Source of the DNA: a virus
DNA length: 46,489 bases
Reading direction: 5' to 3' (one strand)
IMG/VR virus record: IMGVR_UViG_3300046463_000534
Span: 1-46,489 of that record
Shown here: piece after piece, positions 1 to 46,489 of the stretch
How the letters are laid out: each line of letters starts with the position of its first letter
How positions within the stretch are numbered: the first letter of the stretch is position 1
The notes under the pieces: model-generated
The model's input: the letters and a program-made list of their open reading frames with translations, nothing else
What the model was told of the DNA's origin: nothing
The model's database searches: none
Position numbers and translations under genes: made by a program

Positions 1-127
1 GGCCGGCACCGATGCGCTGTATGTCGGCTCGACGCAGGACTTCCGCGGACTGTCGATCCGGCTGCTGGACAGCGTCTCGGCGGTGGCGAGCGTGCTCTCG
101 GTCGCCTACTGGAACGACGCCTGGACA
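1..127. repeat. Left copy of 127-bp terminal direct repeat
   Basis: Bases 1-127 are the same as 46363-46489 by direct reading. The reading frame of the neck gene continues across the join without interruption. A 127-base overlap equals a common largest k-mer size in short-read assembly, so this is most simply the overlap of a circular assembly graph rather than a biological terminal repeat. Confidence 0.95.
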
Positions 128-574
128 ACGCTCGCCATCGACGATGGCACAGCGAAGATTCCCGGGAAGACGTGCTCGGGCGGCGGCGCCGTGACATGGG
201 CGCTGCCAGACGACTGGGTCGGACGGATGGTCAACGGCATCGGGCCGTACGCCTGGGTCAAGCTGACAGTCTCCGCGACGCCGACGAACGCGAAGGCATC
301 GCAAATCGGCGTGCTCACGCATTCTGTGCTCTCGGCGCCGGCGACCCTGCGCACCTTGACGCTCATCATGCGGGAAGCGCCGACCGGCGGCCCTGGGCCG
401 TGGGCGGAGAAAGCCGCCTGGTACGAGAGCGAAGCCGATGCCGCGTTGGAGCGCGCACTCCCCCTCGTGGGCAGCGAATTTGACACGGACGCCAGCGACC
501 TCGTCAGCCCGACGGAGGCGGTCCAGACCGAAGCCGATGCGGGTGCGACGCCATTTCGATTGGAACGCGCATGA
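1..574 (+). CDS. Virion neck/head-tail region protein, 3' part of a gene split by the contig join
   Basis: This is the C-terminal part of a gene that starts at 46076; the first full codon here begins at base 2. Joined across the 127-bp overlap, the protein is about 286 residues. The second half has a compact beta-rich pattern (YWNDAWT, IDDGTAK, WALPDDW, YAWVKL) of the kind seen in phage structural proteins that carry a small carbohydrate-binding-like or jelly-roll domain. I know the pattern but not an exact family. Position between the capsid-side genes and the tail completion gene fits a neck or head-tail connector role. The next gene overlaps it by ATGA. Function is inferred from synteny. 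Confidence 0.7.
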   Translation, partial: AGTDALYVGSTQDFRGLSIRLLDSVSAVASVLSVAYWNDAWTTLAIDDGTAKIPGKTCSGGGAVTWALPDDWVGRMVNGIGPYAWVKLTVSATPTNAKASQIGVLTHSVLSAPATLRTLTLIMREAPTGGPGPWAEKAAWYESEADAALERALPLVGSEFDTDASDLVSPTEAVQTEADAGATPFRLERA

Positions 575-16028: not shown

Positions 16029-16131
16029 CGGGCCGTGAGACCGTGACCGTGATGCGCAGGCCGCCGGGCGGCCGGGGCATCGGGGGCTTCTTCGGCATCG
16101 GGTGCTGCCGAAAGGGGAGCACGCGCGTCAT
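16012..16131 (-). CDS. Possible 39-residue coupled ORF between lipoprotein and integrase
   Basis: The ATG overlaps the stop of the lipoprotein gene (ATGA) and the stop lies inside the start of the integrase, so it would bridge the two genes by translational coupling. The product is basic and Pro-rich (MPKKPPMPRPPGG). No domain. It may serve only to carry ribosomes to the integrase start. Confidence 0.4.
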   Translation of the reverse strand: MTRVLPFRQHPMPKKPPMPRPPGGLRITVTVSRPDAKNK

Positions 16132-16760
16132 CGCTGCTCGGTGACCGTCCATGAAACGCCCGTCGAGATCGTCGTTTGCAGCGTCTCGCCGCCCTTCACG
16201 AGATAGGTCCCGCTGAACGGGCTGCGCGTGTCGGCGATCGAACATGTGCCGATGATGATGTTGATGAGCAGTCCGCTCACAGTGCCCTTCACGACGAAGT
16301 TCTGGCAGGAGCCTGGATACGTCGCATCGACGCGCACCTTCGAGACAAATGCTGGCAGCGCGAACACGTTATCACCTACACCGCTCTGTATGAAGAGAGG
16401 GGGGTCCATGAGAATCTGTACCGACGTGTCGCCGTTGCCCACCGTGACCGATTGCGAGCCGTCGATGTATCCGGCGGCGTGTGAGACGACGGTGAAGGTA
16501 CTCGGCGTCAGGCTGGACAAGGTGTAGTTACCGGCGCTGTCTGAGGCGGTTGTCTTTCCGTCGTTCGCGCCGCCCTGAATCGTCAGCGTCGCGTTGGGGA
16601 TCCGAATGGTGGTGAGACGCGCATTCGCGACGTTGCCGGTGAGATTGAACGTGGTGCGTGCGGGCGGCGTCGGCGTCGGCGTCGTGGGGGAGGATCCGCC
16701 GCCGCACGATGTAACGAGCACGAGCACTATCCAGCCGATTGCGAATCTTGTTCTTCGCAT
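16128..16760 (-). CDS. Lipoprotein with carboxypeptidase-regulatory-like domain
   Basis: The 210-residue protein begins with a lipoprotein signal: MRRTRF, a hydrophobic core (WIVLVLV), then TSCGGGSS, where Cys19 is the probable lipidated residue. A Thr/Pro linker (PTTPTPTPPA) follows. Residues 36-115 (FNLTGNVANAR, LTIQGGANDGKTTASDSAGNY, LTPSTFTVVSHAAGY) match the beta-sandwich pattern of carboxypeptidase-regulatory-like domains common in lipoproteins of acidobacteria and relatives. A second beta domain ends the protein. It sits between repressor and integrase on the same strand, so it should be expressed from the prophage. Superinfection exclusion or host surface change is a reasonable inference. 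Confidence 0.75.
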   Translation of the reverse strand: MRRTRFAIGWIVLVLVTSCGGGSSPTTPTPTPPARTTFNLTGNVANARLTTIRIPNATLTIQGGANDGKTTASDSAGNYTLSSLTPSTFTVVSHAAGYIDGSQSVTVGNGDTSVQILMDPPLFIQSGVGDNVFALPAFVSKVRVDATYPGSCQNFVVKGTVSGLLINIIIGTCSIADTRSPFSGTYLVKGGETLQTTISTGVSWTVTEQR

Positions 16761-16766
16761 AGCAGA

Positions 16767-17258
16767 TCAACCCACCTTTCGATGATGGCCAGCGCGACCG
16801 GCTTTTCCTGTGCCAGTCTTTCCATCTGTGATGTGAGCCGGCGCATCCTCCACGAGTCGAGTGAGGTCACGGGCAACATCCGACACGGCACGGTGGAAAG
16901 CGTCGTACGTTGAGGAGAATTCTGCGAGAAGACGAGCTGTAGCGACCGTCGCGGCATCTAAAGGTCCCCCAAGCTGCGCCTGGGAACGCGCAGCGGAGGA
17001 GGATCCGCGATCCGCCTGACAGAGAAGGTCATGCTTCGGATCGAGGCCGAGAATCAGCGTATTCACGTCGGTCTCAAGTAGCACAGCTAAACGAATCAGC
17101 GTCTCGGTCTCCGGCAAACTGCGTCCCGTTTCCCAGCGAGAGACAGCCGACTGCTCGACACCGAGCTTCGCGGCAACGTCTTCTTGCCTCAGCTTCACCC
17201 GCTTCCGCGCTTCTGTCAGCGCGAGCCATTTCCGCACGGCCCGAAGCATACCCAACAT
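16767..17258 (-). CDS. XRE-family repressor (CI-like)
   Basis: The 163-residue leftward protein has an N-terminal XRE helix-turn-helix at about residues 20-72 (RQEDVAAKLGVEQSAVSRWE, TGRSLPETETLIRLAVLL). The C-terminal part is helical and charged; no S24 peptidase motif is seen, so RecA-triggered self-cleavage is not expected. It is divergent from the Cro-like gene across the control region, the classic layout of a lysogeny switch. CAGGGA lies about 6 bases before its ATG and overlaps a palindrome, so binding there could shut off its own translation or transcription. Confidence 0.8.
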   Translation of the reverse strand: MLGMLRAVRKWLALTEARKRVKLRQEDVAAKLGVEQSAVSRWETGRSLPETETLIRLAVLLETDVNTLILGLDPKHDLLCQADRGSSSAARSQAQLGGPLDAATVATARLLAEFSSTYDAFHRAVSDVARDLTRLVEDAPAHITDGKTGTGKAGRAGHHRKVG

Positions 17259-25440: not shown

Positions 25441-26391
25441 ATGACAAGGCGCGTTAGTGACCGGCGACCCCCATCCGAGGGACACATCCACGCGCAGTCC
25501 GCGTCGGAGACGGCTCCCCGCGTCTTTTACGAAGACGAGAGCGTGCGGCTATATCACGGGGATTGCTTGGCGATCTTGCCGACGCTGGAGCCAGTGGATC
25601 ACGTCATCACAGATCCGCCGTTCAGCAATGCGACCCATACGCGAGCGCGCAGCAATCGAGGGCATGGACGCGATCCTGTCACCGCCATCGATTTCACCGC
25701 CATCGATTTCACCGCCATCGATTTCACCGCCATCGATTTTTTATTGCGGGGTTTAGCTGAGAAATGCGGGCGATGGTTTATTGCCACCCTCGATTGGCGA
25801 CACGTCGCGGCGCTGGAATCTGCCACGCCAGAGCCGTGGGAGTTTGTGCGCTTCGGCGTGTGGGTGAAAACGAATCCAATGCCGCAATTAACCGCTGATC
25901 GGCCCGGCAACGGATGGGACGGCATTTGTTATTTGCACAATACGCGGGCTGGTCGAAAACAATGGAACGGCGGTGGTGAACACGGAAACTGGATCGGGCC
26001 AGTCGTGACGGATGGCCTGCATCCTACGGGGAAGCCGTTGCCGATGGTGATCGATTGGGTGCGGCTGTTCACCGACGAAGGCGAAACCATCCTGGATCCC
26101 TTCGCGGGATCTGGCACGACGCTCGTCGCGGCGAAGTTGAACGGGCGAAAGGCCATCGGGATCGAGATCAGCGAACAGTACTGCGAAGTCGCTGCAAAAC
26201 GCTTGCGCGAGACCGAACCGGGGCGACTCTTCGACACGATCCCGAAAGCGAAGCAAGTATCGTTCTTGAAGACGATGGGATCGCCCGTGTCCGACCCTGC
26301 GGTACGACGGACGGTGGGAGATCCCGGCACGTCCACGCGCGTCGACGCGTCTTCGTCGTCTGCTGCGCCTGATCTTCTGGAGGACCGATGA
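25441..26391 (+). CDS. DNA methyltransferase (amino-group, DPPF type)
   Basis: The 316-residue protein has motif IV DPPF at residues 58-61, HPTGKP at 194-199 and motif I DPFAGSGTT at 219-227, followed by GIEISEQYCEVAAKRL. This order (IV before I) is that of beta-class N6-adenine or N4-cytosine methyltransferases. It would mark phage DNA against host restriction or alter expression. Between motif IV and the next helix lies TAIDF repeated four times (81-100), an unusual insertion. No restriction partner is adjacent. The C-terminal 55 residues are a Ser/Arg/Asp tail. Confidence 0.85.
   Translation: MTRRVSDRRPPSEGHIHAQSASETAPRVFYEDESVRLYHGDCLAILPTLEPVDHVITDPPFSNATHTRARSNRGHGRDPVTAIDFTAIDFTAIDFTAIDFLLRGLAEKCGRWFIATLDWRHVAALESATPEPWEFVRFGVWVKTNPMPQLTADRPGNGWDGICYLHNTRAGRKQWNGGGEHGNWIGPVVTDGLHPTGKPLPMVIDWVRLFTDEGETILDPFAGSGTTLVAAKLNGRKAIGIEISEQYCEVAAKRLRETEPGRLFDTIPKAKQVSFLKTMGSPVSDPAVRRTVGDPGTSTRVDASSSSAAPDLLEDR
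25681..25740 (+). repeat. Four 15-bp tandem repeats inside the methyltransferase gene
   Basis: ACCGCCATCGATTTC occurs four times in a row (the last unit ends in T instead of C). Each unit encodes Thr-Ala-Ile-Asp-Phe and contains ATCGAT. Copy-number change would keep the frame. Confidence 0.95.
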
Positions 26392-36662: not shown

Positions 36663-36878
36663 ATGCCAGGCGGACACAAAGGCTCTCGGCTCGACAGTCT
36701 CCAAGCGCAACGCCTCGTGGCAGGGTTGGACATTTCCGGCTTGGCGAGAAAGGCCAACGTCTCGGACTATTTGATCGTCGAGATGGAGCGGGGCGGCAAC
36801 TGCGAGGTCTACGAAGCGCAGCGGATCGCGGATGCGCTGGGCGTCTCGCTGGTGACGTTGGGCGAAAAGAAGCTCTAA
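36663..36878 (+). CDS. Small XRE-like HTH protein in the head operon
   Basis: The 71-residue protein follows the terminase gene, with AGGAGGA before the ATG. Its core, LDISGLARKANVSDYLIVEM and then ERGGNCEVYEAQRIADAL, is a helix-turn-helix. A regulator between terminase and portal is uncommon. By my hand alignment, 26 of 52 positions are identical to the N-terminus of the protein at 40122, so they are paralogues. Confidence 0.65.
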   Translation: MPGGHKGSRLDSLQAQRLVAGLDISGLARKANVSDYLIVEMERGGNCEVYEAQRIADALGVSLVTLGEKKL

Positions 36879-39887: not shown

Positions 39888-40132
39888 GGAAGACGAAGAC
39901 GCCGAAGGCGCCCAAGACACCCACGCGGGCGCACATCTTCAACCGCGTCACGTTTATCCAGCGCAGCCGCGGGGTGAGCAGTGAAGAAAAGGCGATGTAT
40001 CACAACGTGACCGGCGCCGGGACGTCGCATGTGCGGCGGGTGTTCTTCGACCTCAGTCCCGAAGACGCCGCGCTGTGCCAGACGACGCTCCATGACGCGT
40101 TGGTGACACGGATGACCCCTTATGCCCAATAG
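39884..40132 (+). CDS. Hypothetical small protein in head operon
   Basis: From ATG 39884 (overlap with the previous stop) the product is 82 residues. It begins with a Lys/Pro/Thr-rich basic tail (RKTKTPKAPKTPTRAH) and continues as a compact fold (HVRRVFFDLSPEDAALCQTT). No domain is recognised. It overlaps the next gene by 11 bases. Confidence 0.5.
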   Translation: MRKTKTPKAPKTPTRAHIFNRVTFIQRSRGVSSEEKAMYHNVTGAGTSHVRRVFFDLSPEDAALCQTTLHDALVTRMTPYAQ

Positions 40133-40556
40133 CACCGGCCATCGCCACGACACCCTCGCCACCCGACGTGTGCTCGGCGGCCTCTCGGTCGGCGAACTCG
40201 CCCGACGGGCGAACGTGACCGACGTCCTCATCAATCGGCTGGAAGCGGGCGGCAGTTGTACGCCGGTCGAGAGCCAGCGGATTCTCGATGCCTTGGCCTC
40301 GCCGGCCACGATTACGTCGAATTCGCAGGCGAACCCGACGTCCGTGCTCACGGCCGCCGTGCATGCGTTTCAGACCGGGGACACGGTCGTCCTGGCCGGC
40401 ATCACCGGCGCGAATGCGGACCCCAACGGGACCCGCGTGGCGACACGCGTCGACACGACGCACTTCACGGTGCCCATCAACTGCACGACGGCTGGCGGGA
40501 CCAACGGCACGGCGACGATTGACAAAGCAAGTACCAGCGTAGCGGCGCTCAACTAA
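40122..40556 (+). CDS. HTH fused to a virion-type beta domain
   Basis: The 144-residue product has an N-terminal helix-turn-helix (residues 14-62: LSVGELARRANVTDVLINRL, EAGGSCTPVESQRILDAL) that is half identical to the small HTH protein at 36663. Residues 64-135 form a beta domain (NPTSVLTAAVHAFQTGDTVV, TRVDTTHFTVPINCTTAGG) like those in phage structural proteins and the FCCH-like fold. A DNA-binding domain joined to a structural domain is unusual. It could bind packaged DNA inside the head or regulate head genes. Confidence 0.6.
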   Translation: MPNSTGHRHDTLATRRVLGGLSVGELARRANVTDVLINRLEAGGSCTPVESQRILDALASPATITSNSQANPTSVLTAAVHAFQTGDTVVLAGITGANADPNGTRVATRVDTTHFTVPINCTTAGGTNGTATIDKASTSVAALN

Positions 40557-40613: not shown

Positions 40614-41384
40614 ATGCCGAAATTTGAAATCGAACTCGACGAGAAGGGCGAATTCCTCGGGACGTTGCCGACGGAGTTCACCGCGGTGCTGGACAAACTC
40701 AAGTCCACCGCACACGGGGAAGGCTTCGGGAAGGGCAATCAGAAGGCGGCCGAAGAGGCGAAGAAGCAAATCGAGATGCAACTCGCCACCGAGAAAGCCA
40801 AATGGGACGCCGGCCTGCCTGGCGAGCGTGCCAAGTGGGGCGCCATTGAGGACGAGAACAAGCACCTCAAGACGCAGCTCGACACGACGCTTGGCGAACA
40901 GCGCAAGCGGATGAACGAGCGCGAAGAAGCCCATGCCCAGGAAGTCACCCGACGCGCCGAGCGCGAGGCCAAACGCGACACCAAGATCCGCGATCTCGTG
41001 AACCAGAACCTCAAATCGCTCGCGGCGAGAGCCGGCGCGCGGGACGAGTCGCTGGCCGAGCTCGAAGTGATTCTGCAGCATCGCATCGGCTACACCGACG
41101 ACATGGAGTGGTTCGTCAAGGACGAGGCCGGACAGCCGGCCAAGACCACGGCGGGCAATCCGTTGCCGTTGGATGTGTTCGTGAAGCAGTACCTCGACAA
41201 TCACCCGCATCACCGCAAAGCCGCAGTCGGTCAGGGCGGCGGCGCTCGCGGCGGCGCGTCCTTCGGTGGGGGTCACGCACCACCCGCGTTGGACACCGCG
41301 CGCGCGCGTGTGGAAGCGGGGGATCGGTCGCCGGACGCCATCAACGATCTATTCAACGCGACCCGCAAGAAGGGTGCTGCGTAA
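40614..41384 (+). CDS. Capsid scaffold protein
   Basis: The 256-residue protein is highly charged and almost all helix between residues 45 and 145 (KAAEEAKKQIEMQLATEKAK, EREEAHAQEVTRRAEREAKR), with a Gly/His-rich linker and a short basic C-terminal helix (FNATRKKGAA), the classic design of a scaffold that binds the capsid protein by its tail. It lies directly before the major capsid gene. The second 18-bp repeat supplies its ribosome site. Confidence 0.85.
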   Translation: MPKFEIELDEKGEFLGTLPTEFTAVLDKLKSTAHGEGFGKGNQKAAEEAKKQIEMQLATEKAKWDAGLPGERAKWGAIEDENKHLKTQLDTTLGEQRKRMNEREEAHAQEVTRRAEREAKRDTKIRDLVNQNLKSLAARAGARDESLAELEVILQHRIGYTDDMEWFVKDEAGQPAKTTAGNPLPLDVFVKQYLDNHPHHRKAAVGQGGGARGGASFGGGHAPPALDTARARVEAGDRSPDAINDLFNATRKKGAA

Positions 41385-41393
41385 GGAGCCATC

Positions 41394-42569
41394 ATGTCGT
41401 TCTCTGGCATTTCCACCAACAAGTACTTCACGCCGAACCTCGTCGGCGAGGACGTGTCGGAGGTCTTCAAGACCCTCGCCCCGTACGAGGCGCCGTTTCT
41501 CGACTGGGTCGGGGACGCGGACGGGTTTGCGACGAACACGCGGCACGAATTCATCGAAGACTTCCTGCGTCCGCGTACCATCGTCAACTCGACGGCGATC
41601 AACTCGGCCACCGCGGCGACGGGCATTCAGGTCAACGGGCTCGCCGAGGCACTGACGCTCGGGACGATCCTCGAGATCACGGGTCCGAACCCGGAACGCC
41701 TGCAGGTTTCCTCGATCGTCTCGGGCGGCAACTCCATCCAGGTGACCCGCAACTACGACGGGTCGGGCATCGGCTCGCTCGCACCTGGCAGCACCTTGGT
41801 GGTGCGTGGGCCGGCCGGCATCGAAGGTGACGAACACCAGGGGCTGCACACGGCACGGCTCGGCAACCGGCGCGCGAACACGGTCGCGTACTACAAGATC
41901 GAGATCGGTGCGACGCGCACCGGGATGGCCGTCAATCTGTATGGCGGCGACTCGTACGAGCGGGCACGGGCGAAGCTGCTCCGCGAAGTGCCCGCCGTGC
42001 TCGAAGCCGACGTGCTGACGAGCACGCTGAATGGCACGAACTCGCTGGGGGCCTCGTCCACCACGCGCACGATGGTCGGGCTGCGGTCGATGATTCAGTC
42101 GCCGTCGGGCGGCGCGCCCGTCAATTCGACGGTCACGGACTCGTCGTTCTCGGCGAACCCGCACCTGTATCTCGGGGACGCGCTGCAGAACGCCTTCAAC
42201 GCGGGCGCGGCGACGACCGAGACCTGGGGCATTCTGGCCGGGTCGCAGTACTTCCGCGACATCTCGAACCTGAACGACACGAAGGTGCTCGACAGCAACC
42301 AGAGCGAACTCTTCAAGCGCGTGATTCGCAACTACGCGGGTCCGTTCGGGCAATGCACGGTGTTTCTGAGCCGCGCGCTGGCCGCTCGGGAACTGCTCAT
42401 CGTGCCGCGTGAGCGCATCCGCATTCTGCCGCTCCAGTCCCGCAACTTCGTCTATCAAGAGATGGGACTCACGGGCGACAACCTGAAGGGGATCATCGTC
42501 GGGGAATACACGTGCGAGGCGTACCACACGTACGCAATGGCTCGCATCCGCACCACGTCGCCGGCGTAA
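41394..42569 (+). CDS. Major capsid protein (HK97 fold, SU10/DUF5309-like)
   Basis: The 391-residue protein begins close after the scaffold. Its pattern (APYEAPFLDWVGDAD, FIEDFLRPRTIVNSTAI, ITGPNPERLQVSSIV, EGDEHQGLHTARLG, GPFGQCTVFLSRALAARELL, then RNFVYQEMGLTGDNLKG) is that of SU10-type major capsid proteins of the DUF5309 group, with the HK97 fold. It forms the icosahedral shell. No N-terminal protease signature is present, as expected with a separate scaffold. Confidence 0.88.
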   Translation: MSFSGISTNKYFTPNLVGEDVSEVFKTLAPYEAPFLDWVGDADGFATNTRHEFIEDFLRPRTIVNSTAINSATAATGIQVNGLAEALTLGTILEITGPNPERLQVSSIVSGGNSIQVTRNYDGSGIGSLAPGSTLVVRGPAGIEGDEHQGLHTARLGNRRANTVAYYKIEIGATRTGMAVNLYGGDSYERARAKLLREVPAVLEADVLTSTLNGTNSLGASSTTRTMVGLRSMIQSPSGGAPVNSTVTDSSFSANPHLYLGDALQNAFNAGAATTETWGILAGSQYFRDISNLNDTKVLDSNQSELFKRVIRNYAGPFGQCTVFLSRALAARELLIVPRERIRILPLQSRNFVYQEMGLTGDNLKGIIVGEYTCEAYHTYAMARIRTTSPA

Positions 42570-42624
42570 CACTGGACGGCCGGGGCGCGTGTGCGCTCCG
42601 GCCGAGTTCTTGGAAGGGGCACTC

Positions 42625-42867
42625 ATGGCCGGGTCTTCACTCGTCGACGAATTCTGCCGAGCGGGCGAACTACAGCACCACTTCTTCCGTCGCTGCCAGC
42701 GGGAATTCCGAGACACCGTCATGCCGTCGCTGGATTTTCTGGAAGCGGAAGGCGACGTCGCAGGGGTGCGGGCGAAGCTCGCAGAACTCGACACGCTCCG
42801 CGCGGAGAACGCGGACCTCAAGAAACAACTCAAACGGCAGAAGCCAGATCCTGTAGGGGTGCGATGA
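42625..42867 (+). CDS. Small coiled-coil protein after the capsid gene
   Basis: ATG 42625 has GGAAGGGG about 7 bases upstream, so I prefer it to GTG 42589. The product is 80 residues; the C-terminal half is a likely coiled coil (LAELDTLRAENADLKKQLKR). It overlaps the next ATG. A decoration or assembly role is possible; no family known. Confidence 0.5.
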   Translation: MAGSSLVDEFCRAGELQHHFFRRCQREFRDTVMPSLDFLEAEGDVAGVRAKLAELDTLRAENADLKKQLKRQKPDPVGVR

Positions 42868-43106
42868 AGAAACCACCACTCGGTACCGGGGCGCGCTTCA
42901 GCGCGCTCGAGAGTAAACTCGCCGCGCGGCCTGGCGTCACGAATCCCGGCGCGCTTGCCGCCGCCATCGGGCAAGCGAAATACGGCGCGTCGAAAATGGC
43001 GTCGATGGCCGACCACGGGGATGCCCACGCGGCGACGGTCAGCCACGTCAAGGGACGACAGGCGACCCACGCCAAGACGACCCCGGGCGGGGGCGAGGGC
43101 TGCTAA
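42864..43106 (+). CDS. Small conserved phage protein
   Basis: The 80-residue product starts by ATGA overlap. LGTGARFSALESKLAARPGV, NPGALAAAIGQAKYGASKMA is a pattern I associate with small conserved phage proteins of unknown function. The C-terminus is His/Thr/Gly-rich. It ends one base before the large glycosyltransferase fusion. Confidence 0.6.
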   Translation: MKKPPLGTGARFSALESKLAARPGVTNPGALAAAIGQAKYGASKMASMADHGDAHAATVSHVKGRQATHAKTTPGGGEGC

Positions 43107-46079
43107 ATGGCGCGTCTCTCGTTGGCGTTTCTCGTCGACTCGGTGCCCTTCACGAAAGCCGTCTGTGACGGCGAGACGTCGCTCGGCGGCTCGGAGTCGG
43201 CCTGTCTTGGCCTGGCGCGGGCACTGAAAGCCAAGGGCCACGACGTGCATGTCTTCGCCACGAATCTGGCAGAGGACGCCGTCGGGGTCGATCCGTGGGA
43301 CGTGATCTGGCACCCGCTGGACACGTTCCGGCAGTTGAACCAGTTCTGGGAATGGGACGTTGTCATCGGGCTTCGACAGCCCGGCTTCTTCACGACGCCT
43401 CTGGCGGCGCGCCTGCGCGTGCTCTGGAACCAGGATCTCCTCACGCCCGCGGCCGGCAACGGCGTCATGTCGATCGCGTGGGCGCTCGACAAGAGCGTGT
43501 ATGTCTCGGAATATCACCGACGTCAGTGGGAAGACATCCAGCCGGAACTCGCCCCGCTCGGGGTGGTGACGAAGAACGGCTTCGATCCGGCGCTGGTGCC
43601 GACGGACGCGGTCAAAGACCCGCATCGGATCATTCACGTCTCTCGACCGGAGCGCGGGCTCGGGCCGCTCCTCGCGATGTGGCCGGAGTTTCGGAAGCGC
43701 CATCCGCAGGCGACACTCCAGGTGTGTCGCTATCAGTCGATGTACGACGGGGAAGGCTCGAACGTGCGGGCGTCGTGTCTCGCGTTCGATGCGCGCGTCG
43801 AGGCCGTGAATGCGGCCGTCGGCGGCATCACCTATCTCGGCTCGCTGAACAAAGCGCAACTCTCCCGCGCGATCGCCGACGCGGCGGTGATGTGGTACCC
43901 CGGCATCGCGAGTTTCGCCGAAACGTCGTGTATCGCCGCGATCGAAGCGCAGGCGTGCGGCACCCCGTTCGTGGGCTCGCTCCGTGGTGCGTTGCCGGAG
44001 ACGGCGTACCCGTCGTTTGAGGCAGGGCTGCTCATCGGCGGGGATGCGGACGCGCCGGAGTATCAGCAGGCCAGTATGGCGGCCGTGGAACGGCTGCTGG
44101 ACGGCTGCGCTCGGCAGTCCTTCGAGTACCGCACACTCCAACAGGCCGGACGGACGCACGTCGAGTCCTACACGTACGCGGCCCTCGCGGACGAGTGGGA
44201 GCAGATGATCGAGGGCTGGTTCGCGGAACGCTACCAGGCGAACACGCCGCGCATCCTGCGGCAGCTGCTGCACGAGGACGACCATACCGCCGCGCAGATC
44301 GTAGCTGAGGAGCTGGGCGACCAGACCGCGCTCGCGTTCTGTCAGCATGTCATCCAGGGCCATGACCAGGTCGCGGAGGACTACGCCGCGTACGCCATTC
44401 AGGACGTGCTGTACGAAGTCGACCAGTCGGGCCGCTTCAAGGCCGTCTCACGGTACTTCGACGCCTGCACCAGCCTGCTTGACGTGGCGTGCGGCAACGG
44501 CGCCGCGGCGATCCGGTTTGCGCTCGATCATCCGACGCTCCGCGTTGTCGGGTTCGACTACGCCGAGCCGAACATTCTGCGCGCGCGCGAAGCCGCCGAG
44601 AAAGCGGGCGTGGCGGATCGCTGCACGTTCCAGCATCTCGCGGTGTGGGATCTCGAAGGCGAACGCCCGGCCGAGACGACAGACACCATCGCCGCCCTCG
44701 GGCCGTATGACGGCCTGTTCGTCGGGGAATTCCTCGAGCACGTCGCGGACTGCACGCGCCTCGTGGATTACTTGGACGCCTTCCTGACGGAGGGTGCGGC
44801 GGTCGTCTACACGTGCCCGATGGGGCCGTTCATGGAACTCGCCACGCGCGGCACGCCGATCAAGCGTGGGCACGTTCACTGCTTCATGCACGATGACGTC
44901 CGAGCCGTGTTCGGTCAGAAGCGGGCCTTCGGGGCGGACTTCTTCGACATTGGCGTGACGCCGCGCGGGAATCCGGTCGGCCATTGGCTGATTCACTACA
45001 CCAGCGCGCCCGATCGGCCGGCTGGTCGACGCGACTATGCCACGCGCATCCAGCGCACACGGCCGCAGCAGAAGGTGTCGGTCGGCATCATCGCGAAGGA
45101 CGCGGAGAACGACCTCGGGCGCTGTCTCGCCTCGATCTGGCCGATTGTGGATGAGATCGTCGTCGGCGACACCGGTTCGAGTGACGACACGGTGCGCATC
45201 GCGGAGAGTTACGGGGCGCGGGTACTCACGCTGCCGCCCATCGAGGAGACGCGCGAGGGCTTCGCCGGCGCGCGCAATGCCGTGCTGGACGCCTGCACGG
45301 GCGACTGGTTCCTGTGGATTGACACCGACGAAACGCTCATCGAGCCGTGGAAGCTGCGCGGCTTCCTGCAGGGATCGACCTACAACGGGTATGTCCTCCA
45401 CCAGAACCATCTGTATCTCGACGGGCCGCCGACCTACGACAAACCGATCCGGCTGTTCCGTCGCACGCCAGACATCCGGTTCTATGGCTGCATCCACGAG
45501 CAACCGCAGGCGGGGGACGCGAATACGGACATCCTGCCCAGCCTGGATCTCTCGGAACCGTCCATCGCGCACACCGGGTATCTGACGCAGGAAGGCCGCG
45601 AAGACAAGCGCGTCCATCGCAACCGTCCGCTCCTGAAGCGCGATCAGCAGGTCTTTCCGGAGCGGCTGCTCGGGAAGGTGTTGCTGATTCGGGAAGCAGT
45701 CATCGAAGCCGATGCGCGGCGCGTACGTGCGGGCGGCCTCACGACCAACGCGGCGCAGGGCTATCAGCATGCGATCGCGATGTTCGAGCGGTATTTCAGC
45801 GATCCGTCACACAAGATGGCAATCATCGCGCGGCCGTGGTACGAAGCCGCCCTCCGGCACCTCGGGGCCGGGTGGGAATTTGAGTGGGCGTTCGCCGGCT
45901 CGCCGGGGGGGATGGATCCCAACCGGCACGCGAAGCCTGAGCGCGTCCACGTCAAGGATGCCGACGACCTCAAGCGTCTCGTGGCGCATCGATTGACGTC
46001 GGCCGCCGAGAAGATGGCGCCGATCACGTTCAAGACGGACCCCGTGCTCTCGACGTCGAGAGAACAGGTCGCCTCGTGA
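43107..46079 (+). CDS. Glycosyltransferase-methyltransferase-glycosyltransferase fusion
   Basis: The 990-residue protein has three enzyme parts. Residues 1-375 form a GT-B (GT4-like) transferase: LGGSESACLGLARALKAKGH near the N-terminus and the EX7E pair Glu272/Glu280 in FAETSCIAAIEAQACGTPF. Residues 430-640 form a SAM methyltransferase with motif I LLDVACGNG at 457-465, followed by VVGFDYAEPN. Residues 656-900 form a GT-A (GT2-like) transferase with VVGDTGSSDDT and the metal-binding DTD at 739-741. It starts right after a small head gene and its stop overlaps the neck gene. It most likely builds and methylates glycans on the virion or alters host glycans. Confidence 0.85.
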   Translation: MARLSLAFLVDSVPFTKAVCDGETSLGGSESACLGLARALKAKGHDVHVFATNLAEDAVGVDPWDVIWHPLDTFRQLNQFWEWDVVIGLRQPGFFTTPLAARLRVLWNQDLLTPAAGNGVMSIAWALDKSVYVSEYHRRQWEDIQPELAPLGVVTKNGFDPALVPTDAVKDPHRIIHVSRPERGLGPLLAMWPEFRKRHPQATLQVCRYQSMYDGEGSNVRASCLAFDARVEAVNAAVGGITYLGSLNKAQLSRAIADAAVMWYPGIASFAETSCIAAIEAQACGTPFVGSLRGALPETAYPSFEAGLLIGGDADAPEYQQASMAAVERLLDGCARQSFEYRTLQQAGRTHVESYTYAALADEWEQMIEGWFAERYQANTPRILRQLLHEDDHTAAQIVAEELGDQTALAFCQHVIQGHDQVAEDYAAYAIQDVLYEVDQSGRFKAVSRYFDACTSLLDVACGNGAAAIRFALDHPTLRVVGFDYAEPNILRAREAAEKAGVADRCTFQHLAVWDLEGERPAETTDTIAALGPYDGLFVGEFLEHVADCTRLVDYLDAFLTEGAAVVYTCPMGPFMELATRGTPIKRGHVHCFMHDDVRAVFGQKRAFGADFFDIGVTPRGNPVGHWLIHYTSAPDRPAGRRDYATRIQRTRPQQKVSVGIIAKDAENDLGRCLASIWPIVDEIVVGDTGSSDDTVRIAESYGARVLTLPPIEETREGFAGARNAVLDACTGDWFLWIDTDETLIEPWKLRGFLQGSTYNGYVLHQNHLYLDGPPTYDKPIRLFRRTPDIRFYGCIHEQPQAGDANTDILPSLDLSEPSIAHTGYLTQEGREDKRVHRNRPLLKRDQQVFPERLLGKVLLIREAVIEADARRVRAGGLTTNAAQGYQHAIAMFERYFSDPSHKMAIIARPWYEAALRHLGAGWEFEWAFAGSPGGMDPNRHAKPERVHVKDADDLKRLVAHRLTSAAEKMAPITFKTDPVLSTSREQVAS

Positions 46080-46489
46080 GCTTTGCGCCGAACGATCTCG
46101 TCTCGGACGACGACTTGATCGCCTACGAGTCGAGTCTGCTGACGGCGTTCAATGCGGTCGACTGGCAGGAAAAGCGCCGGCGCGCGCTGAATGACTGGCT
46201 CGCGCCGATTCTGCGCAGCCGTGGCTTCGATCTGACGAGGCTCCGCACACGGCTGGAAGCCGATGCGGTGCTCGGATACACGGCCTCGGTCTACACCGAC
46301 AAAACAGGGGCGTCGAGCGACACCACGACGGACGATCTCAGCCTTGGGACAATTTTCGCGACGGCCGGCACCGATGCGCTGTATGTCGGCTCGACGCAGG
46401 ACTTCCGCGGACTGTCGATCCGGCTGCTGGACAGCGTCTCGGCGGTGGCGAGCGTGCTCTCGGTCGCCTACTGGAACGACGCCTGGACA
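46076..46489 (+). CDS. Virion neck/head-tail region protein, 5' part
   Basis: A GTG at 46076 overlaps the stop of the fusion enzyme (GTGA). The first 95 codons (MSFAPNDLVSDDDLIAYESS, then LNDWLAPILRSRGFDLTRL) are helical and acidic, then pass into the beta domain at the repeat. The frame continues at base 2 of the window and ends at 574, giving a 286-residue product. The two-domain layout, helical first and beta second, suits a connector. The function is inferred from place. Confidence 0.7.
   Translation, partial: MSFAPNDLVSDDDLIAYESSLLTAFNAVDWQEKRRRALNDWLAPILRSRGFDLTRLRTRLEADAVLGYTASVYTDKTGASSDTTTDDLSLGTIFATAGTDALYVGSTQDFRGLSIRLLDSVSAVASVLSVAYWNDAWT
46363..46489. repeat. Right copy of 127-bp terminal direct repeat
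   Basis: Matches bases 1-127 by direct reading; see the left copy. Removing one copy gives a circle of 46,362 bp. Confidence 0.95.

Follow-up and report, generated by a model that had tools for sequence, protein, structure and literature searches.

A three-domain glycosyltransferase–methyltransferase–glycosyltransferase fusion in the head operon of a tailed-phage lineage without a close isolate

Introduction

Viral systems in which glycosyltransferases (GTs) and methyltransferases (MTs) work together on a glycan are already known, and two of them resemble the locus described here. Mycobacteriophage Corndog (Cluster O) carries an O-methyltransferase gene and three GT genes (gp35-gp38) between its portal and protease genes, and the encoded enzymes were seen in infected cells and not assigned to the virion (PMC4351075). 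Mycobacteriophage enzymes of this kind were later reported to modify the capsid and the tail tube, according to the passages of PMC11600133 that cite Freeman 2023, and these two structures are the mycobacteriophage glycosylation targets named in PMC11600133 and PMC12619734. In the chlorovirus PBCV-1, the A064R protein unites two GTs and an MT (GT-GT-MT) and makes the methylated end portion of the glycan on the major capsid protein, and A061L adds a second methyl group after A064R has acted (PMC9614988). In the literature that we found, virion glycosylation in tailed phages has so far been shown for few isolates, all mycobacteriophages, in which the enzyme genes are separate.

The DNA analyzed here is the 46,489-nucleotide IMG/VR virus record IMGVR_UViG_3300046463_000534, the whole of which is called the window below. 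An earlier note, made from its letters alone, had described one 990-residue frame that joins a GT-B glycosyltransferase, a SAM methyltransferase and a GT-A glycosyltransferase, had proposed that it is made with the phage particle, and had suggested that it decorates the capsid or tail with methylated sugars. Our literature search, which left most subscription papers outside its reach, found no report of a GT-B/MT/GT-A fusion in a tailed phage. What is new is the GT-B - MT - GT-A order in one phage polypeptide and the fixed presence of this three-in-one fusion across a broad lineage that has no close isolate in INPHARED.

Results

The genome and its head operon

The two ends of the window are identical over 127 bp (1–127 and 46363–46489), and an independent 13.5-kb contig of identical sequence, which comes from the same phage (L001 in Table 1), spans the end junction; the record is thus a complete circular genome of about 46.36 kb, and the neck gene that reaches its last base runs on at base 1. 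The phage encodes an integrase, an ERF recombinase and a YqaJ nuclease and is therefore taken to be temperate. Upstream of the major capsid protein (MCP) gene lie genes for the terminase, the portal, a Mu-F-like head protein and a 256-aa protein that matches no family and is in the scaffold position, which is the only basis for that label. Downstream of the MCP come two small genes, the fusion gene and the neck gene, and then genes for a 144-aa protein and a 354-aa tube-like protein, chaperone-like ORFs and a tape-measure-like gene (Table 1); neither the neck protein nor the 354-aa protein gave a family match. The 80-aa ORF next to the fusion gene is probably coding, since the genes here are so tightly packed. 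The fusion and neck genes overlap by 4 bp (neck GTG at 46076, fusion TGA ending at 46079), and the location between small capsid-side genes and an overlapping neck gene is as the earlier note had it. A 1004-aa antisense ORF (41349–44363, minus strand) that covers the MCP gene and the start of the fusion gene is interrupted in most relatives checked and is not a gene but the usual codon-aligned shadow frame of GC-rich coding DNA.

Elsewhere in the genome, a putative lipoprotein with a carboxypeptidase-regulatory-like domain (16128–17258, minus strand) is encoded beside a helix-turn-helix (HTH) regulator near the integrase and is a possible lysogenic conversion gene, and an N6/N4 DNA methylase gene (25441–26391) has a 31-bp tandem duplication inside it (25679–25739).

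Table 1. Features of the fusion locus and its neighbors in the window
Feature	Coordinates	Strand	Basis and remarks
Major capsid protein, SU10_MCP type	41394..42569	+	Pfam PF17236, E=1.1e-32; candidate acceptor and syntenic partner
Small coiled-coil-like protein, 92 aa	42589..42867	+	Between MCP and fusion; found in some relatives by tblastn
80-aa ORF (MKKPPLGTG...)	42864..43106	+	4-bp overlap with preceding ORF; stops directly before fusion ATG
Three-domain fusion gene	43107..46079	+	GT-B - methyltransferase - GT-A, 990 aa; ORF, Pfam, AlphaFold2 model
GT-B domain (GT4-type, retaining class)	43107..44246	+	Residues 1-380; invariant motifs, Foldseek
GT-B motifs	43920-43922 (E272); 43944-43946 (E280)	+	GGSES 27-31; RPER 180-183; EX7E = E272 + E280
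Helical linker, GT-B to methyltransferase	44247..44441	+	Residues 381-445; AlphaFold2 secondary structure, high pLDDT
Class I SAM methyltransferase domain	44442..45041	+	About residues 446-645; Pfam, invariant residues, Foldseek and profile matches to AtmM and RebM
Methyltransferase motifs	44475-44501 (motif I)	+	LLDVACGNG; acidic D484
GT-A domain (GT2, SunS/GmaR-like)	45054..45641	+	About residues 650-845; profile and Foldseek
GT-A motifs	45321-45332 (DTD-E); 45570-45581 (H-x-G-Y)	+	HEQP 797-800; H-x-G-Y 822-825
C-terminal helical hairpins and small alpha/beta cap	45642..46076	+	Residues 846-990; AlphaFold2 secondary structure
Neck (head-tail connector) gene, first part	46076..46489	+	Named by position
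Neck gene, remainder	1..574	+	286 aa whole; ORF 7881-8741 in L001
Major tail-tube-like protein, 354 aa	1021..2085	+	Lies ahead of tail chaperone-like ORFs and tape measure; second candidate acceptor

Three transferase domains in one chain

The ORF list and its translation give the fusion gene as a single unbroken frame from an ATG, and Pfam matches above or near the cut-off mark its three parts: Glyco_trans_1_4 (residues 175-315), a class I methyltransferase (455-564) and Glycos_transf_2 (658-762). The frame and its three domains agree with the earlier description, as do the positions of the EX7E glutamates, of motif I (457-465) and of D739-T-D741. An AlphaFold2 model from a 43-row alignment, which replaced one from a 5-sequence alignment with a pLDDT of 58, has a mean pLDDT of 91.0 and a pTM of 0.87; all three domains are modeled with confidence and each has Foldseek matches in the PDB, allotted to the domains by alignment length and sequence matches. 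The earlier note had offered structure prediction as a check on its idea and catalytic residues that fail to line up as grounds for dropping it; the EX7E motif aligns with that of 7qsg, and the third-domain motifs align with those of SunS and GmaR.

The first domain has the GT-B double Rossmann fold together with EX7E, both of whose glutamates are invariant in the 43 aligned homologues (43/43). Its structural matches include the methylmannose mannosyltransferase 7qsg, tll1591, AviGT4 and PimA, with GT4 structures at a probability of 1.00, and from its sequence and model it is predicted to be of the GT4 type and the retaining class. In the second domain the G-x-G of motif I and the acidic residue of motif II lie on a Rossmann fold, as in class I SAM methyltransferases, and D459, G463, G465 and D484 are likewise invariant in 43/43. 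Foldseek matches it to AtmM and RebM, as do profile searches (the D-glucose O-methyltransferase AtmM at 5e-12; also RebM), and these closest structures suggest that it would methylate a sugar hydroxyl.

The third domain has a GT-A fold with a DxD motif and a downstream His region (H-x-G-Y), the features of SunS/GmaR-like GT2 enzymes. D739, D741 and E742 are invariant in all 36 homologues that extend this far, and H797, E798, Q799, P800, H822, G824 and Y825 are also unvarying in the sequences that reach the third domain. The glycocin S-glycosyltransferases SunS and ThuS are its top Foldseek matches, and its profile matches are GmaR (E=1.7e-32) and SunS (1e-22). It scores 42.6 bits (E=3.6e-11) against the curated NCBIfam SunS equivalog, whose cut-off is 350 bits, so its sequence makes it a relative of SunS and not SunS itself, and a protein rather than another sugar as its acceptor is less than certain. 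Enzymes of the GT4 GT-B type are retaining and those of the GT2 GT-A type inverting, and the donors of both are nucleotide sugars.

In the model the GT-A domain runs on into helical hairpins (828-919), which stand at the position of the TPR region of GmaR, whose GT-A domain likewise continues into helical repeats, and which could hold the acceptor. The C-terminal part as a whole (846-990) has conserved residues in the homologue alignment and is a possible acceptor-recognition part. No membrane segment was found in the fusion, in which the highest 19-residue hydropathy is 1.16.

Sequence conservation and the model together strongly support three intact and structurally confident transferase domains in one protein, and the chemistry assigned to them is well supported. 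Most of the fusion can be aligned, at 13% identity, with long phage proteins in BFVD such as A0A6J5T3W3 (1119 aa), which points to further putative multi-domain glycan enzymes in uncultured phages.

Relatives and gene order

IMG/VR was scanned with the fusion, capsid and neck proteins as queries, which returned 39, 43 and 28 loci, respectively; some contigs were common to several scans and one is this same phage. With duplicates removed, the fusion is represented by 35 distinct full-length copies (this phage and 34 relatives), each one unbroken frame of 970-1072 aa, and the domain order GT-B, MT, GT-A is the same in 35/35. Among the capsid loci, 34 of the 43 have the GT-B domain next after the MCP gene, and the other nine contigs stop no more than about 0.6 kb from the MCP match. 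Upstream of the neck gene, all 28 neck loci carry the fusion or whatever portion of it the contig retains, and the 4-bp stop/start overlap of fusion and neck genes is present in 14 of the 20 loci tabulated. A homologous MCP lies upstream of the fusion in the relatives, and within the fusion-bearing set its identity to that of this phage falls as low as 34%. The earlier note's suggestion that such a fusion be sought beside the capsid genes of other phages is thereby answered, and its view that the protein is made with the particle gains support from gene order that is universal in the lineage and from the 4-bp neck overlaps in many relatives. The universality applies to this lineage, since the queries came from fusion-bearing members; in Sporosarcina phage Lietuvens, a more distant relative by its capsid protein (28%), the stretch from MCP to tail genes lacks such a gene. 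INPHARED has no close cultured relative (the best fusion match is about 28% over parts, and the MCP has one match, at 28%). In this lineage of temperate tailed phages the fusion appears to belong to the core head genes.

Three relatives have an extra Methyltransf_24 gene between the MCP gene and the fusion (L011 7202-7816, L090 1098-1700 and L082 182-778), possibly for a second methylation step, and this variation among the neighboring genes supports a role in glycan synthesis. One of these relatives, L082 (SPAX01000244.1), is a 9.8-kb fusion-bearing contig binned as Nitrospira; its recognizable genes are all phage-like and the binning may be an error, so it is a weak lead to a host and we assign none from it.

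Selection and co-divergence with virion genes

All three domains are under purifying selection; dN/dS in pairs of close relatives is about 0.01-0.32 in each. Divergence of the two GT domains follows that of the MCP (Spearman 0.76 and 0.75) and of the neck protein (0.71 and 0.72), and it is the tail-tube-like protein that tracks GT-B best (0.80, against 0.66 for GT-A), whereas the MT domain follows the tube poorly (0.31). When the other structural genes are controlled for, the values are 0.61 for GT-B and the tube, 0.41 for GT-A and the tube, and 0.31 for GT-A and the MCP. TerL, with 12 genomes only, gave 0.50 with GT-B, 0.70 with MT and 0.23 with GT-A. Because distance pairs are not independent and the MT domain behaves differently, we use this co-divergence only as a lead to the acceptor, and part of the linkage with the structural genes could come from inheritance as a block.

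Comparison with described systems

Like Corndog gp35-gp38, this locus has GT and O-methyltransferase domains, with activities predicted from their families, encoded within the operon of virion structural genes. The Corndog genes, however, are four separate ones in a phage of mycobacterial hosts, and tblastn against INPHARED found no detectable similarity between that module and the fusion. The architecture resembles that of PBCV-1 A064R, with two GT domains and an MT in one viral polypeptide, and the separate methyltransferase A061L has its parallel in the extra MT gene of the three relatives above. A064R differs in its order (GT-GT-MT) and length (638 aa), in having a retaining GT-A first and an inverting GT second, and in extending an N-glycan that has already been started in an algal virus. 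Given the different domain order, we do not count the fusion as a member of the A064R family, although by analogy it may work in a similar way, and it would be the phage counterpart of that algal-virus enzyme, apparently reached independently. The resemblance to SunS, ThuS and the Listeria flagellin GlcNAc-transferase GmaR (GT-A fold, with DxD, HE-P and H-x-G-Y aligned) concerns the third domain only, as these enzymes have one catalytic domain and the fusion has three.

Both GT domains find matches in only three INPHARED records, among them the podovirus MW202524 (ctKR88, Manatee Spring; L084). Its SU10-type MCP gene is followed (MW202524.1 3147-11978) by a gene for a GT-A + GT-B protein, another GT gene and two methyltransferase genes. 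This is a different type of phage, in which GT-A precedes GT-B and the methyltransferases are separate genes, and the whole cluster after its MCP gene is an unfused counterpart of the fusion.

Discussion

We consider it probable, at about 0.7, that the fusion is a soluble, late-expressed enzyme with three activities that assembles a short, O-methylated glycan on a protein of the virion, probably that of the capsid and/or the tail tube. The enzymatic part of the earlier interpretation stands on the conserved motifs and the model, and manufacture with the particle on synteny and gene overlaps; the virion target, which that interpretation also proposed, we still infer, from gene position and evolutionary association, from the type of the GT-A domain, from the absence of a membrane segment, and from that of a modified-base synthesis enzyme among the ORFs scanned.

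SunS glycosylates a peptide cysteine directly. Since GmaR likewise glycosylates its flagellin substrate directly (PMC9638930), the grouping of the GT-A domain with these two places it first in the proposed pathway: it would most likely transfer the first sugar, with inversion, straight onto a virion protein's side chains in the cytoplasm of the host, a location of the acceptor that fits the lack of a membrane segment. The retaining GT-B domain would add the second sugar, and O-methylation by the methyltransferase would probably cap the chain, a terminal role for the methyl group that the A064R precedent makes plausible. The separate second methyltransferase of three relatives would add another methyl group, and the host would supply the nucleotide sugars and SAM. 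In the expected product, a short methylated glycan is present in many copies on the capsid and/or tail tube of the virion and may alter the surface chemistry, stability or recognition of the particle. This scheme is conditional in its sequence of steps, its sugars, its acceptor and the advantage that it would bring. Ser/Thr tails at the C-terminus of the MCP were considered as acceptor sites and are unsupported, as that C-terminus is short and not conserved.

The glycan could instead be on the host surface, where a change of polysaccharide or lipid glycans like that in serotype conversion would block superinfection or change a receptor, the place in the head operon being incidental. The phage is temperate, temperate phages are known to change the O-antigen with GT systems such as GtrABS (PMC11990801), and the GT-B structural matches include PimA and other enzymes of glycolipid or polysaccharide synthesis. 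Nonetheless we think this unlikely: the gene is part of the late head operon, overlaps its neighbor at start/stop codons in most relatives and is away from the integrase region, which is unlike the placement of typical lysogenic conversion genes, and a Gtr-type system is not recognizable here, in that the fusion has no hydrophobic membrane segment and neither a flippase nor a bactoprenol transferase nor any other partner gene was present among the genes scanned. Clearly less probable still is a soluble target with no stable virion product, either a small molecule or a glycoconjugate of host or phage (for example, in depletion of nucleotide sugars or tagging of a host protein); the MT matches are indeed natural-product sugar methyltransferases, but such a target leaves unexplained the fixed position between MCP and neck genes, kept while the MCP diverged so far. 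Decoration of modified bases in the packaged genome, which late expression would suit and which recalls the many phage GTs that act on DNA (Pyle 2024, as summarized in PMC12619734), is the least likely, as Pfam found no base-hydroxymethylating or thymidylate-synthase-like gene among the 40 window ORFs, the domains match protein, natural-product and polysaccharide enzymes rather than DNA-specific GTs, and the fusion stays with the MCP and neck genes and not with replication genes.

If the virion is the target, as we favor, some phage particles carry glycosylated proteins as a regular feature, and the fusion is a compact, self-contained enzyme for putting defined methylated glycans on proteins in the bacterial cytoplasm. 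More tentatively, and with the odds rather against it, this lineage may have made virion glycosylation obligatory for assembly through the single polypeptide, possibly acting at the capsid-neck step, so that the virion needs its methyl-capped coat.

Other genes of the head operon

Small HTH proteins recur in the head operon of these phages (window 36663-36878 and 40122-40556; L100:5511-6041; L102:5272-5802). The two in the window have a common N-terminal domain (50% identity), which in one of them is fused to a domain with weak similarity to a major tail protein (phrog_584), and the L100 protein comparably combines a repeat-like domain with a weak HTH match.
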